A stretch of 64,000 nt of DNA from Pelagerythrobacter rhizovicinus (GTDB taxonomy: Bacteria; Pseudomonadota; Alphaproteobacteria; Sphingomonadales; Sphingomonadaceae). The stretch spans positions 806,001 to 870,000 of the forward strand of contig NZ_SDPV01000002.1 of assembly GCF_004135625.1 (NCBI RefSeq). Direction: 5' to 3'. A program made the translations under genes and the position numbers. The notes under the pieces were generated by a model that saw nothing but the letters and a program-made list of their open reading frames with translations, was not told the DNA's origin and made no database searches. Below, piece by piece: positions 54,742-59,221 of this stretch. The first letter of the stretch is position 1, and each line of letters begins with the position of its first letter.

Positions 54742-55710
54742 ATGGCGAGCAACGATACCGCAAGCGCGGGCCGGGCCCCGGCGATCGAGGCCCGCGGCTT
54801 GGTCAAGCAATTCGAGGGTACCACCGCGGTCGATGGGATTGACCTGACCGTACCCGAAGGCGCGATCTACGGCATTCTGGGCCCCAATGGCGCAGGCAAG
54901 ACGACGACGCTGCGCATGCTGCTGGGGATCATCGACCCGGACGAGGGCGTGCGCCGCGTGCTCGGCCGCGACGATCCGCACGATATCGCACGACTGATCG
55001 GCTACCTGCCGGAGGAGCGCGGGCTCTATCCGGCGATGAAGGCAGTCGAGGCGATCGCCTTCATGGGCGCGCTGCGCGGCGTGCCGCTCGCCGAAGGGCG
55101 CCGCCGCGGACGCGAGCTGCTCGAGGGTCACGGCCTCGGTCATGCCGCCGACAAGCAGATCCGCCAGCTCTCCAAGGGCATGGCCCAGACCGTCCAACTC
55201 CTCGGCACGCTGGTCCACCGCCCGCGGCTGGTGGTCCTCGACGAGCCGTTCTCCGGCCTCGACGCGATCAACCAGGGCAAGCTCGAGGGGCTGATCCGCA
55301 ACCTCGCCGCAGACGGGACAACCGTGATCTTCTCGACCCACGTGATCGCCCATGCCGAGCGCCTGTGCGAGCAAGTCGCAATCATCGCCGGGGGCAAAGT
55401 TCCCTACGCCGGATCGGTCGACGCGGCGCGCGACCGCATCCCGGCGCAAGTCCGCCTGGAAACCCGCGCGCGGGAGGGCCGCTGGCGCGACGCGCTGCCC
55501 GCCGATGCCCGGCGCGAGGGCGACTACTGGTACTTCCCCCTGCCCGAAACGGGCATCGAGCCGCTGCTGCGCGCGCTGATCGAAGGCGAGGCGGGCATCC
55601 TGTCGCTCTCGATCGAGCGCGCCGGACTGCACGACGCCTTTGTCGATATCGCCGGCGAGGCCGCGGCGCGCGCGCTCGATGAGCAGAGCCCGGCGGAGGC
55701 CGTGCAATGA
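54742..55710 (+). CDS. ABC transporter ATP-binding protein, NatA-like
   Basis: The ATPase of a two-component ABC-2 exporter. The 322-residue protein has Walker A GPNGAGKTTT near residue 56, the signature LSKGMAQ near residue 143, Walker B RLVVLDEPFSGLDAINQ near residue 163 and the switch His in IFSTHVIAHAERLCEQ. A C-terminal extension of about 100 residues follows, as in NatA. An upstream ATG at 54715 would add 9 residues and cannot be excluded; 54742 has the better purine stretch (AGGCGA). It is coupled to the permease gene by ATGA. Confidence 0.93.
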   Translation: MASNDTASAGRAPAIEARGLVKQFEGTTAVDGIDLTVPEGAIYGILGPNGAGKTTTLRMLLGIIDPDEGVRRVLGRDDPHDIARLIGYLPEERGLYPAMKAVEAIAFMGALRGVPLAEGRRRGRELLEGHGLGHAADKQIRQLSKGMAQTVQLLGTLVHRPRLVVLDEPFSGLDAINQGKLEGLIRNLAADGTTVIFSTHVIAHAERLCEQVAIIAGGKVPYAGSVDAARDRIPAQVRLETRAREGRWRDALPADARREGDYWYFPLPETGIEPLLRALIEGEAGILSLSIERAGLHDAFVDIAGEAAARALDEQSPAEAVQ

Positions 55711-56954
55711 CCCCGGCCAATTCGCGAGCAAAGGCCCGCCTCCCCCTGGCCCGCGCGGCCTTCGTGATTGCGCGGCGCGATTTCACCGCGATCCTGTTCA
55801 GCAAGTCGTTCCTGTTCTTCCTGCTCGGCCCGCTGTTCTTCCTCGCGATCGGCGGCGTCGCCGGCCTGCTGAGCTCGCAGGCGGCCCGCAGCGCCGACAA
55901 CCCGCGGCTGGCGGTGGCGATGGCACCCGCCGACTCGGCCGCCTTCGCCGCGGCGCACGCGCGCCTCGCCGATCTCGTCGACCTGCCCGACATCGAGACG
56001 GTCGAGGCCGGCATGGCAGACGACGTCGGTGCACTGCTCGGCGATACCGACCAGAACTTCGGCGCGGTCCTGAGCGGTTCGCTGGCCGCCCCGCGCCTGA
56101 GCGGAACACAAGACCGTATCGAGCGATGGCGAGGCCCGGTCGCACTGGTGGCCGCCGAAGCCGGATCCGCAGGCCCAGCCGACTACCCGCAAGTCTCGCT
56201 CGTGCCGACGGCGACGAGCGTAGCGCAGGAACGCAGCGCCAATGCGGCAACCGCTACGGCCGCGGTGACGCTGCTGTTCCTTCTCTCGATGCTGCTGGCG
56301 GGCATGGTCATGTCCAACCTCGTCGAGGAGAAGGCCAACAAGATCATCGAGATCCTCGCTGCCGCCGTGCCGATGGACGCGGTCTTCTTCGGCAAGCTGT
56401 TCGCGATGCTCGCGCTCAGCTTCGTCGGCATCGCGGTGTGGGGCGGCGTCGGCGGCGCAATCGCGCTCGCCGGCAACCTGCTGGAGCAGATGCCGGCGCC
56501 GGCGATCGGCTGGCCGGCCTTCGCCGTGCTGTTCCTCGTCTATTTCGCGATGGCCTATCTGCTGATCGGCTCGATCTTCCTTGCGATCGGATCGATGGCG
56601 CCGACCGTGCGCGATGTGCAGACCCTGTCGATGCCGGCGACGATCCTCCAGCTCCTGGTCTTCTTCCTCGCCAGCTACGCGATGACCGATCCGGGATCGC
56701 CGGTCGAGCTGTTCGCGATCGTGTTCCCGCTCAGCTCGCCCTACGCGATGATCGCGCGCGCCGCGCAGGAACCGGCGCTATGGCCCCATGCGCTCGCGAT
56801 CTTCTGGCAGATCGCCGCGGTGGCGCTGTTCGTGCGCCTGGGCGCGCGGCTGTTCCGCAAGCGCGTGATGAAGTCGGGCCCGGCGCAGGCGAGCAAGCGG
56901 CGCTTCTGGAACCGCGGAGGCGCGGCGCGAGCCAACGAGGTCGTAGACTCATGA
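55707..56954 (+). CDS. ABC-2 type permease, NatB-like
   Basis: A 415-residue membrane subunit. One helix near the N-terminus (SFLFFLLGPLFFLAIGGVAGLL) is followed by a large periplasmic domain of about 170 residues (IETVEAGMADDVGALLGDTDQNFGAVL). The C-terminal membrane domain of five to six helices begins at ATAAVTLLFLLSMLLAGMVMSN and contains NLVEEKANKIIEILAAAVPMDAVFFGKLFAM, the motif typical of NatB/YhaP permeases. Exports Na+ in the Bacillus prototype; the substrate here is not determined. Starts within the ATP-binding gene (ATGA). Confidence 0.93.
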   Translation: MTPANSRAKARLPLARAAFVIARRDFTAILFSKSFLFFLLGPLFFLAIGGVAGLLSSQAARSADNPRLAVAMAPADSAAFAAAHARLADLVDLPDIETVEAGMADDVGALLGDTDQNFGAVLSGSLAAPRLSGTQDRIERWRGPVALVAAEAGSAGPADYPQVSLVPTATSVAQERSANAATATAAVTLLFLLSMLLAGMVMSNLVEEKANKIIEILAAAVPMDAVFFGKLFAMLALSFVGIAVWGGVGGAIALAGNLLEQMPAPAIGWPAFAVLFLVYFAMAYLLIGSIFLAIGSMAPTVRDVQTLSMPATILQLLVFFLASYAMTDPGSPVELFAIVFPLSSPYAMIARAAQEPALWPHALAIFWQIAAVALFVRLGARLFRKRVMKSGPAQASKRRFWNRGGAARANEVVDS

Positions 56955-57041
56955 AGTGGTCGGTCGGCTAACGACCCTTTTGCAACCGTTGCCGTCTCAT
57001 TCGGGACTTTCCGAAAGCGGACAGGCTTCTGACCCACGTTG

Positions 57042-57108
57042 TGACGCTCCGTAGCCCGCTGAAAAGCTGGGACGGGCTACTGGCGTCAGAACCGATCGGT
57101 TTTGACGC
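57042..57108. promoter_or_regulatory. Nested inverted repeats with competing pairings upstream of the 57191 gene
   Basis: TGACGC at 57042-57047 and GCGTCA at 57083-57088 enclose a second pair, GTAGCCCG (57051-57058) and CGGGCTAC (57073-57080). The same GCGTCA can instead pair with TGACGC at 57103-57108, forming a 26-nt palindrome (57083-57108) whose core AACCGATCGGTT is perfect. The two foldings exclude each other, like an RNA switch or an overlapping operator. Confidence 0.55.
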
Positions 57109-57190
57109 ACTCACGTCTCGTCAGCTTTGGAGCGGAATCAACTATTTTTCCTCCGTTGGCCGTGCCATGTTGCCGCCGGGGAGGGTCATC

Positions 57191-57649
57191 ATGTCTGCCG
57201 CATCCGCGTCGTTTCAAAAGTCGCTGGTCGTTGCCGGGGCGATTTTGTTTCTGTTGGGGCTGCTCCAAGGTGCGGCGGTCCAGTCGTTTGCCAATCCTAG
57301 GATGGCGCTGTCGGCGCATTTGACGGCCGTGCAAAGCGGCCTGGCGCTAATGATTGTCGGGGTAATCTGGCCTGCTGTTGGGTTGAATGCCACGCTTCTG
57401 AAGGTTGCCTGCTGGGCAGTCATTCTCGGGATGTATGGCCTCTGGCTGGGATTAACACTGTCGGCGGCGACAGGTGCCAGCGACGCACTGCCCATCGCTG
57501 GCGCAGGCTATAAGGCAGATTGGCTCTCCGAAGCGAGCGTATCGGCGATCGTTCTGGTCTCCAGCGGACTAATGACCCTGGGTTGGCTGCTGTTCGTAGT
57601 GGGCCTGATCCGTCGTCGTTCGGACGGTGTCACAACCGAACGGTTTTGA
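57191..57649 (+). CDS. Hydroxylaminobenzene mutase-like membrane protein
   Basis: A 152-residue membrane protein with four hydrophobic helices. The segment GAILFLLGLLQGAAVQSFANPRMALSAHLTAVQSGLALMIVGVIWP resembles HabA/HabB hydroxylaminobenzene mutases, including the ANPRM-LS-HL stretch. The known enzymes rearrange hydroxylaminobenzene to 2-aminophenol; activity here is untested. ATG at 57191 with GGGGAGG upstream. The gene and its flanks are visibly poorer in G+C than neighbours and contain more T-runs, hinting at transfer. Palindromes of the same design lie at 57083-57108 and over its stop codon (57626-57653). Confidence 0.7.
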   Translation: MSAASASFQKSLVVAGAILFLLGLLQGAAVQSFANPRMALSAHLTAVQSGLALMIVGVIWPAVGLNATLLKVACWAVILGMYGLWLGLTLSAATGASDALPIAGAGYKADWLSEASVSAIVLVSSGLMTLGWLLFVVGLIRRRSDGVTTERF

Positions 57650-57653
57650 CACC
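57626..57653. repeat. 28-nt palindrome overlapping the stop codon of the 57191 gene
   Basis: The outer arms GGTGTCA (57626-57632) and TGACACC (57647-57653) and the inner arms AACCG (57634-57638) and CGGTT (57641-57645) form one long near-perfect palindrome. It is a second copy of the element at 57083-57108, with the arms changed on both sides so that pairing is kept (GCGTCA/TGACGC there, GTGTCA/TGACAC here). Confidence 0.7.
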
Positions 57654-57802
57654 GCGCAACGGCGGCTTCTTTGGTGCCTTCCAAAAGCAGACTGTCACAA
57701 AATCACCCAGTTCCGGCACTCCCCTTTATGAGTTCACGACCTAGAGCCGGGGCTCATCACCATCGTCCGCCGCGCAGATAAGTCGCAAATCGCAACGCAC
57801 TA

Positions 57803-57883: not shown

Positions 57884-59221
57884 ATGGCAACGCAGATCGC
57901 CCAATCGCCTGCAACCTATCGCACTTCCCCCGTCGCCGTCGACGCACTGCGCGCGCACTTGGCCGAGCATCCCGAGGAGAAGTGGAGCCATACCCACCCC
58001 TACGACGTCAGCCGCAGCGACATCTACTACGAGGACCGGTGGCAGCCGATCTTCGCCGAGATGCGCGCCAAGGGGCCGCTGCACTGGGTCGACGAGAGCC
58101 CGGTGGGACCATACTGGAACGTCGTCAGCCACAAGGCGATCAGTCATGTCGAGGCGCTGCCCGAGCTGTTCTCCTCGAGCTGGGAACACGGCGGGATCAC
58201 GATCCTCAACAAGCTGGACGAGGAACAGCTCGCCGCGCAGGGCAAGGAGCGGTTCGAGCTGCCGATGTTCATCGCGATGGACCGGCCCAAGCATACCGGC
58301 CAGCGCCGCACCGTTGCCCCCGCCTTCACGCCGGCCGAGATGAAGCGGCTGGATGACGACATCCGCCGTCGCACCGGCGAGCTGCTCGATTCGCTGCCGC
58401 GCGGTGAAGTGTTCGACTGGGTGGACAAGGTCTCGATCGAACTCACCACCGGCATGCTGGCGATCCTGTTCGATTTCCCGTGGGAGGACCGCCGCCTGCT
58501 GACCTTCTGGTCCGACTGGGCGGGCGATACCGAGATCGCCATGGTGCGCGATCTCGACGAGATGCGGCACGAGATCCTGCGCGAGATGGCCGCCTACTTC
58601 CAGCAGCTCTGGGCCGAGCGCGCGAACAAGGAGCCCGGGCCCGACCTGATCTCCATGATGATCCACTCGCCGGCGATGAACCAGATGAGCCCGCAGGAAT
58701 TCATGGGCAACCTGGTGCTGCTGATCGTCGGCGGCAACGACACCACGCGCAACACGATGAGCGGGATCATCCACGGGTTCGACAAGTTCCCCGACCAGCG
58801 CAAGCTGTTCGAGGAGAACCCCGACCTGATCCCCAACGCGGTTCAGGAATGCATCCGCTACCAGACGCCCCTGGCGCATATGCGCCGCACCTGCACCGAG
58901 GATACCGAGCTGTTCGGGGAGCAGGTGAAAGCGGGCGACAAGCTGGTGCTGTGGTATCTATCGGGCAACCGCGACGAGGAAGTGTTCGAGAACCCCGACA
59001 AGCTCGACATCACGCGCGAGAACGCGCGACGGCACCTGGCGTTCGGCTACGGCATCCACCGCTGCGTCGGCGCGCGTCTGGCCGAGCTGCAATTGCGCGT
59101 GCTGCTGGAGGAGATGCACAAGCGGCGGCTGCGGGTGCATGTCGCCGGCGATGTCGAGCGGGTGCGCGCGAACTTCGTCCACGGCTTCCGCAAGCTCGAG
59201 GTGGAAGTGACGAGCTTCTAG
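57884..59221 (+). CDS. Cytochrome P450, CYP153-like
   Basis: A 445-residue soluble P450. The heme-binding loop is FGYGIHRCVGARLAELQLR with axial Cys394; the I-helix is GNLVLLIVGGNDTTRNTMSG; the ExxR is NAVQECIRYQTPLAHMRRT. The combined sequence FGYGIHRCVG-RLAELQLR and VRANFVHGFRKLEVEV at the C-terminus is the CYP153 pattern, known for terminal hydroxylation of medium-chain alkanes, terpenoids or fatty acids. Start at 57884 with GGAGGAGAGAG upstream. It needs a ferredoxin and reductase; a suitable reductase is at 52399-53625 but no ferredoxin gene is near. Converges on the PilZ gene. Confidence 0.93.
   Translation: MATQIAQSPATYRTSPVAVDALRAHLAEHPEEKWSHTHPYDVSRSDIYYEDRWQPIFAEMRAKGPLHWVDESPVGPYWNVVSHKAISHVEALPELFSSSWEHGGITILNKLDEEQLAAQGKERFELPMFIAMDRPKHTGQRRTVAPAFTPAEMKRLDDDIRRRTGELLDSLPRGEVFDWVDKVSIELTTGMLAILFDFPWEDRRLLTFWSDWAGDTEIAMVRDLDEMRHEILREMAAYFQQLWAERANKEPGPDLISMMIHSPAMNQMSPQEFMGNLVLLIVGGNDTTRNTMSGIIHGFDKFPDQRKLFEENPDLIPNAVQECIRYQTPLAHMRRTCTEDTELFGEQVKAGDKLVLWYLSGNRDEEVFENPDKLDITRENARRHLAFGYGIHRCVGARLAELQLRVLLEEMHKRRLRVHVAGDVERVRANFVHGFRKLEVEVTSF

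Follow-up and report, generated by a model that had tools for sequence, protein, structure and literature searches.

Two palindromes of the same design flank one small gene in a 64,000-nucleotide window of the Pelagerythrobacter rhizovicinus genome (the window being the whole stretch of DNA analysed, on contig NZ_SDPV01000002.1), and the locus raises the question of what these palindromes are and how they came to border this gene. A preliminary description made from the letters alone had reported them around a membrane-protein gene, and both are there and exact (GCGTCAGAACCGATCGGTTTTGACGC at 57083-57108 on the left and GTGTCACAACCGAACGGTTTTGACAC at 57627-57652 on the right); dimeric protein-binding sites, RNA hairpins and the ends of a small mobile unit had been offered as explanations. 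Our results indicate that the palindromes are probably crossover sites (site I) of a small serine resolvase of Sphingomonadaceae plasmids, the left one belonging to a complete, slightly decayed Sin-type res and the right one being a lone site I, and that all of these are passengers of an 805-bp non-autonomous element of the IS5 family. The features of the locus under this reading are as follows, in window coordinates.

55707..56954, forward strand: upstream neighbour, ABC-2 type transporter permease gene (context); similarity to three congeners ends at 56909-56917.
56938..56959, forward strand: left terminal inverted repeat AGGTCGTAGACTCATGAAGTGG, 82% complementary to 57721-57742.
57027..57047, forward strand: putative accessory site II, with half-sites TTCTGACCC (57027-57035) and TTGTGACGC (57039-57047).
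57048..57081, forward strand: spacer from site II to site I, with an A-rich middle, as delimited in the alignment of 27 res sites.
57082..57109, forward strand: putative site I of a complete res, centre AT, GGCGTCAGAACCG-AT-CGGTTTTGACGCA.
57191..57649, forward strand: passenger gene for a small protein of 152 aa, by eye a membrane protein with several hydrophobic stretches.
57626..57653, forward strand: putative lone site I lacking a flanking site II, centre AA, GGTGTCACAACCG-AA-CGGTTTTGACACC.
57721..57742, reverse strand: right terminal inverted repeat, AGGTCGTGAACTCATAAAGGGG read inward, an IS5-type end.
57884..59221, forward strand: downstream neighbour, cytochrome P450 gene (context); similarity to these three congeners resumes at 57767-57769.

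A degenerate pattern with up to three mismatches recovered only these two sites in the 64-kb window and none in 100 dinucleotide shuffles, and a slightly shorter pattern recovered the same two sites only in the whole 3.0-Mb genome. Many copies flanking different genes would have spoken for a mobile palindromic unit, and a genome-wide palindromic repeat of that kind is ruled out by the two copies found. The full core is 28 bp long (57082-57109 on the left and 57626-57653 on the right). Across related genomes and plasmids, 48 of the 49 loci scanned contained a core with up to three mismatches to 18 fixed positions (64 sites), and the 60 non-redundant cores, obtained by setting aside the redundant loci L117, L120, L121 and L129, gave the consensus GGTGTCANAACCG-NN-CGGTTNTGACACC in a 13+2+13 layout, in which the inner arms are nearly invariant and the central 2 bp are free. 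Two inverted half-sites with fixed inner arms around a free centre match the expectation for a serine recombinase site that is cut at its 2-bp centre. The patterns used to collect cores required CG to the left and right of the centre, and one with the six central bases free, applied to three genomes only, revealed no further core form. One lone core (L070, 6842) lies within a longer palindrome, GATTAGGACAT-core-ATGTCCTAATC, of about 50 bp in total.

The core is linked to a clade of serine recombinases, defined here as those with at least 66% identity to the L073 protein, which are about 190 aa long and mostly plasmid-borne. In 10 of the 13 clade members (L083 on pSY3 of Sphingobium chungbukense, L084, L117, L118, L127, L133, L135, L134 and genomes G055 and G086), a core with 0-5 mismatches at 24 fixed positions precedes the recombinase start by 62-64 bp; the count includes both L084 and L117, which represent one plasmid segment. 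The more distant Caulobacter member (L134, 66% identity) has a core with five mismatches that is still palindromic. Among the remaining three members, L101 has a degenerate core, L132 has a half core whose distal half has been replaced, as might be left by cleavage and strand exchange at the centre, and L131 is coreless but shows site II by eye. The modules of recombinase and res are 73-91% alike between plasmids, and in pairs other than nearly identical plasmids this similarity does not continue past the distal edge of the core, 9.5-16.5 bp from the core centre. Recombinases at 58-61% identity had a core within 1.5 kb on either side in none of ten cases, and the related-but-different cores suspected by eye upstream of two of them (L103, L108) were given up, as no palindrome with at least 10 of 13 pairs was found there. 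In G286, a relative at 58% identity shares a contig with five cores that lie 7-18 kb away from it, indicating that the specificity may exceed the clade.

The genome of the window departs from this linkage. The only serine recombinase found in it, L098, shares 34% identity with the clade, to which it does not belong, and no core lies near its gene. Binding of the cores, and recombination of the res with a matching res, would thus depend on a resolvase brought in by a plasmid. A serine recombinase was near the core in 10 of the first 29 loci and belonged to the cognate clade in only two of these; most res copies and lone cores have no adjoining cognate recombinase, so that another protein could use them. 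A Tn402-like 'res hunter' insertion (L085, L120 and L121 versus L128) was considered as proof of the res and was dropped, because the sequences diverge gradually and the recombinase and transposase genes begin beyond the res.

Between core and recombinase there is a second conserved site, TTCTGACACNGGGTTNTGACACC, composed of two head-to-tail core half-sites 13 bp apart, each repeating the half-site of the core (GGGTTNTGACACC compared with CGGTTNTGACACC); it is followed by a spacer of about 33 bp, and the whole res measures about 85 bp. In 17 of 27 type-A sites the best two half-site matches show this 13-bp spacing, compared with 2.7% of random 66-mers. A 60-bp profile divided the 64 sites into 31 with site II (type A, complete res) and 33 without it (lone cores), L067, whose distal part has been replaced, falling just under the threshold; the profile was trained on 17 sites of other loci, and the own row of a training site was left out at zero shift only. 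The left flank in the window, which was outside the training set, scored best of all 127,880 60-mers of the window on both strands, while the best accessory score of the right copy was -16.8 against a threshold of -2.4. The half-sites of site II in the window are 12 bp apart instead of the usual 13 and carry four mismatches each, suggesting that the left res may be decayed.

In a PDB search, DNA invertases (presumably Gin) and gamma-delta resolvase outscored Sin as matches to the clade recombinase, so that 'Sin-like site' is a more fitting label than 'Sin family'. The likeness therefore concerns the site, with its head-to-tail site II at a fixed distance from site I. The res of Sin has an inverted site I, a head-to-tail site II and a bent spacer within 86 bp, and its recombination needs both site II and a bending protein (PMC2428073). 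The res considered here has the same palindromic site I, head-to-tail site II and spacer, in about 85 bp, and by analogy its spacer would be bent by a host protein of the HU/IHF kind. It differs from that of Sin in its core sequence, in the better match of its recombinase to invertases and gamma-delta resolvase, in its many copies without an adjoining recombinase, and in its lone form of site I, which does not appear in the part of the Sin description drawn on here (PMC2428073).

Some recombinase-less res copies contain an extra motif just outside site II, similar to AATGTCCGCTTT (L068 8130, L069 8499, L070 10404, L128 8004 and others); with up to three mismatches it occurs in 10 of 20 copies, in nine at a constant distance of 53-56 bp to the core, and in 2.4% of random 75-mers, and a similar motif lies 4-7 bp from some lone cores. 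A genome-wide abundance of this outer motif was not upheld (11 matches versus 6 in the control). Two res copies stand back to back in L064 (7866 and 8002), 136 bp apart, with more lone cores on both sides. Related short proteins that by eye look like tyrosine recombinases are encoded beside cores in two genomes (L057 6287-6919; L070 882-1763 and 10654-11361).

The preliminary description had read a change in one arm, matched by a change in the opposite arm, as a compensating change and a sign of selection, which fails when the wider set of cores is considered. Of the 60 cores, 15 deviate from the T at position 3 in the left arm, 14 in the right arm and two in both, with 3.5 expected if the arms vary independently, and only one of those two, the left copy of the window, has the same change on both sides. 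Its matching C/G is a coincidence, one in 60. That the core stays symmetrical would follow from one recombinase monomer reading each half-site. The same data bear on the proposal that RNA hairpins or terminators flank the gene. Near-perfect inverted repeats and the overlap of the right copy with the stop codon of the gene are what such hairpins would predict, but the arms are independent in the 60 cores, RNAalifold on 27 res sites gave no two-sided change in any of the eight consensus base pairs, and the sole Rfam match is a chance one (E 3.2, below its cut-off), so that the hairpin option stands unsupported and we regard it as scarcely credible.

That the palindromes could be operators through which a transcription regulator acts on the membrane gene, with AACCGNNCGGTT as what we take to be a TetR-like operator motif, is prompted by the palindromic core and by the left copy ending 81 bp upstream of the gene start, and it has to be judged on the gene itself. 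The passenger protein matched no family above cut-off in Pfam, NCBIfam or PHROGs, and homologues of its gene occur in 22 of 397 family genomes, its own included. Relatives that keep the gene and lack the palindromes, or that show uncompensated changes in them, had been named beforehand as the observation that would count against selected flanking sites, and this is what was seen: 20 of the 21 homologue loci examined keep the gene without a core at its end, and arm changes are generally uncompensated. That count leaves out the weak or fragmentary L025, L026 and L027 and the own copy L005, and L003 and L011 within it are apparently one species; the only locus with a core is L006, from the same genome as L075. 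Lone cores, moreover, favour the 3′ ends of genes, and among the first 29 loci serine recombinases are the family most often encoded near a core, with no regulator family as widespread, all of which makes an operator very improbable, if slightly less so than hairpins. The idea of dimeric protein-binding sites was right in kind, as two recombinase monomers would sit on each core by analogy with related resolvases, but these are not operators of this gene.

The reading of the palindromes as resolvase sites leaves to be explained how the right core relates to the gene, for which it supplies the last codons and the stop. The last eight residues, DGVTTERF, are encoded in or beside the core, and of nine aligned homologues only that of L075 has such a tail (GVETERL). 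L075 is a 3.5-kb contig of G090, another genus, in which the same gene, with 72% DNA identity, ends in a core at the same codons; its surroundings are different, without such insertion sequence (IS) ends, and the similarity spans the gene, the core and about 15 bp beyond. Since gene and core meet at the same codons there without IS5 ends, the right core apparently predates the IS5 frame that now holds it.

This frame is an 805-bp insert (56938-57742) that holds both cores and the gene and has 22-bp inverted ends of the IS5-family type. The best 22-mer inverted match in the region was 19/22, equalled by one of 200 Markov resamples. The left end has diverged: it has 4/22 mismatches to the right-end sequence, and over 18 positions it has 3/18 mismatches both to the right-end sequence and to the IS5-family left-end sequence AGGCCGTAGACTCATAAG, which is the opposite end of these IS, is exact in L072 and has GTAGACTCAT in common with the left end in the window. 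The right-end 22-mer with up to two mismatches occurs in 12 of 387 family genomes, and the backwards control in none. IS5-family transposase sequence lies just inside the end at 8 of 19 loci examined (L155; L157, with a 19-residue fragment only; L162; L164; and L163, L166, L168 and L170 in one genome), and the two pieces of the L072 transposase both exceed the NCBIfam cut-off for IS5. Both ends without a transposase match were found at L159, L160/L165 (190 bp), L169/L171 (269 bp) and L161 (1,502 bp); the other loci are the window itself (L156), L167 with a weak second end 51 bp off, and L153, L154 and L158 with one end only. Between the right end and the transposase of L155, L162 and L163 there is apparently an extra 330-430 bp of DNA, perhaps with small ORFs. 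A second element with these IS5-type ends and no transposase, L161 (21-1522), has two ORFs that by eye encode a SnoaL-type protein and a TetR-type regulator.

Close relatives place the insert between two conserved neighbours. The gene is missing from all six congeners and the P450 gene is kept in all six; in L088, L089 and L090 the permease gene is kept as well, and 67-164 bp separate the aligned blocks versus 851-857 bp in the window, while the remaining three have another upstream neighbour. The left end of the insert contains the stop codon of the permease, whose last residues differ from those in L088, L089 and L090. No target-site duplication was recognisable at the insert, where an old insertion is possible. 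Inverted ends resembling those of a known IS, a passenger gene in place of a transposase and empty loci in L088, L089 and L090 together argue for a transposase-less IS5-type cassette, of the mobile insertion cassette kind. The mobile unit envisaged in the preliminary description thus does carry the gene, but its ends are the 22-bp IS5-type repeats and not the palindromes. The same IS5 ends were found within 3.5 kb on both sides of no other core-bearing locus, so that the combination of core and cassette is a single case, and around other pairs of type-A and lone cores (the L053, L056, L064, L075 and L076 stretches) no inverted repeats beyond the cores were judged clear, by inspection rather than against shuffled sequence.

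Comparable elements have been described. The mobile insertion cassette with qnrS2 on pAC3 also holds its passenger between IS-like repeats, 22-bp ones in pAC3, and has no transposase, while the passenger here differs in including a resolvase res and a lone core (PMC5444012, as far as its account of these cassettes is drawn on here). TIME-RES, a Tn3-derived miniature element, is likewise non-autonomous and carries a res; according to the portion of the source used, it has Tn3-type ends and its own resolvase gene (PMC4133298), in contrast to the IS5-type ends and the lack of a resolvase here. Membership of the Tn3-derived TIME group was rejected, as the ends are of the IS5 type and not Tn3-type inverted repeats.

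A further alternative is that genes bounded by cores are exchanged between replicons by plasmid resolvases, much as pdif modules are by Xer, and that the window gene with its right core was such a module added beside the res. In pdif modules of Acinetobacter plasmids, genes on plasmids and chromosomes are likewise flanked by site-specific recombination sites, as the consulted part of the account describes, but these are sites of Xer, a tyrosine recombinase, whereas the sites here are serine-resolvase cores and any exchange is putative (PMC6449649). With a crude gene caller, a gene 3′ end is close to the lone core in 20 of 32 cases, compared with 34% of random intergenic positions, and to 7 of 26 type-A sites; L117, L120, L121, L129, L130 and one site with three mismatches are left out of these counts, and the bias of 3′ ends to the front over the back of lone cores is weak (13 versus 5). 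The recurrence of this gene in another genus (L075), with a core at an identical codon position, fits a module, as does the cargo of a TDT transporter, a Mo-oxidoreductase and a cytochrome c, which is followed by a different res 44-50 bp past the last stop in L133 and L139; this cargo is present in 22 plasmid records, of which five were examined, and it is followed by a half core in L132, but by no core in L137 and L138. Ten loci have both type-A and lone cores, and in seven of these all lone cores are on the non-accessory side; each side of L064, with its two back-to-back type-A sites, fits one of them, L068 and L069 do not fit, and the sidedness counts for little because the regions were chosen around the sites. 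A strain-specific gene in the genus of the window (L060 8308-8865, G209; present in one of seven genus genomes) ends 1 bp before a lone core.

The centres argue in the other direction. The centre is AC in 15 of 27 type-A sites and AT, as in the window, in an unusual one of 27, and it is AA in 17 of 33 lone cores; exchange needs matching centres, and those of type-A and lone cores agree in one of 10 loci. In the window the two sites bounding the gene are AT and AA and hence do not form a mutually recombinable pair, which speaks against simple excision between them. No filled and empty pair was found to break at the core centre; the breaks lie at the outer edge of the core. Wild-type resolvases normally require a full res on both sides. 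Exchange of core-bounded modules is therefore an unlikely origin for the window gene, one that we would give perhaps a minor chance. As cores elsewhere border other genes, a serine-recombinase analogue of pdif modules is possible, if unproven. Its widest form would be a serine-resolvase cassette economy shared by sphingomonad plasmids and chromosomes, in which complete res copies are docking points and lone cores fused to gene 3′ ends are the portable ends of single-gene modules, integron- or pdif-like and also riding on IS5-type cassettes, and this we hold to be a shade more doubtful still.

The sequence GTCANAACCGNNCGGTTNTGAC with up to one mismatch was found in 24 of 397 family genomes, and the backwards control in none. 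A 30-base core query retrieved 60 plasmid records at E up to 10, of which 32 cover at least 80% of the query; all 32 are alphaproteobacterial (18 Sphingomonas, 8 Sphingobium, 3 Paracoccus and 3 others), and 19 of them were examined at the match locus. There were also 20 weaker Staphylococcus matches (E 5); one of them, in Staphylococcus aureus pAVX (L130, 2001-2022), is a core-like 22-bp inverted repeat about 310 bp from a recombinase gene, which at E 5 may be unrelated. Viral contigs gave no exact core match, and a viral source was rejected on that ground. Among the papers listed by searches of an open-access library, none dealt with this core or with gene modules of serine resolvases in sphingomonads.

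Taken as passengers of an IS5-family element, the res, the gene and the right core would form one block, probably of plasmid origin, that was inserted between the ABC permease and P450 genes. The 805-bp element would move only if an IS5-type transposase, behaving as its relatives do, acted on its ends in trans. With unequal centres (AT and AA) and no cognate recombinase found, the pair in the window should not recombine now, and the res would most likely be a plasmid-derived multimer-resolution site that is carried by the IS5-type cassette and is inert in this genome. The cognate resolvase of an incoming plasmid, judging from what related enzymes do, could attach to both cores and, where the centres match, recombine the res with that of the plasmid.

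These results tie an anonymous palindrome to its likely enzyme and provide a searchable signature, the core together with site II, for plasmid resolvase sites in the Sphingomonadaceae, an environmentally important family. Res copies and lone cores border passenger genes even on a chromosome in which no cognate enzyme was found, suggesting how plasmid sorting sites come to bound movable genes. If lone cores are recombinogenic, they would be the serine-recombinase counterpart of pdif modules and integron cassettes, and could provide a route for single genes between plasmids and chromosomes.
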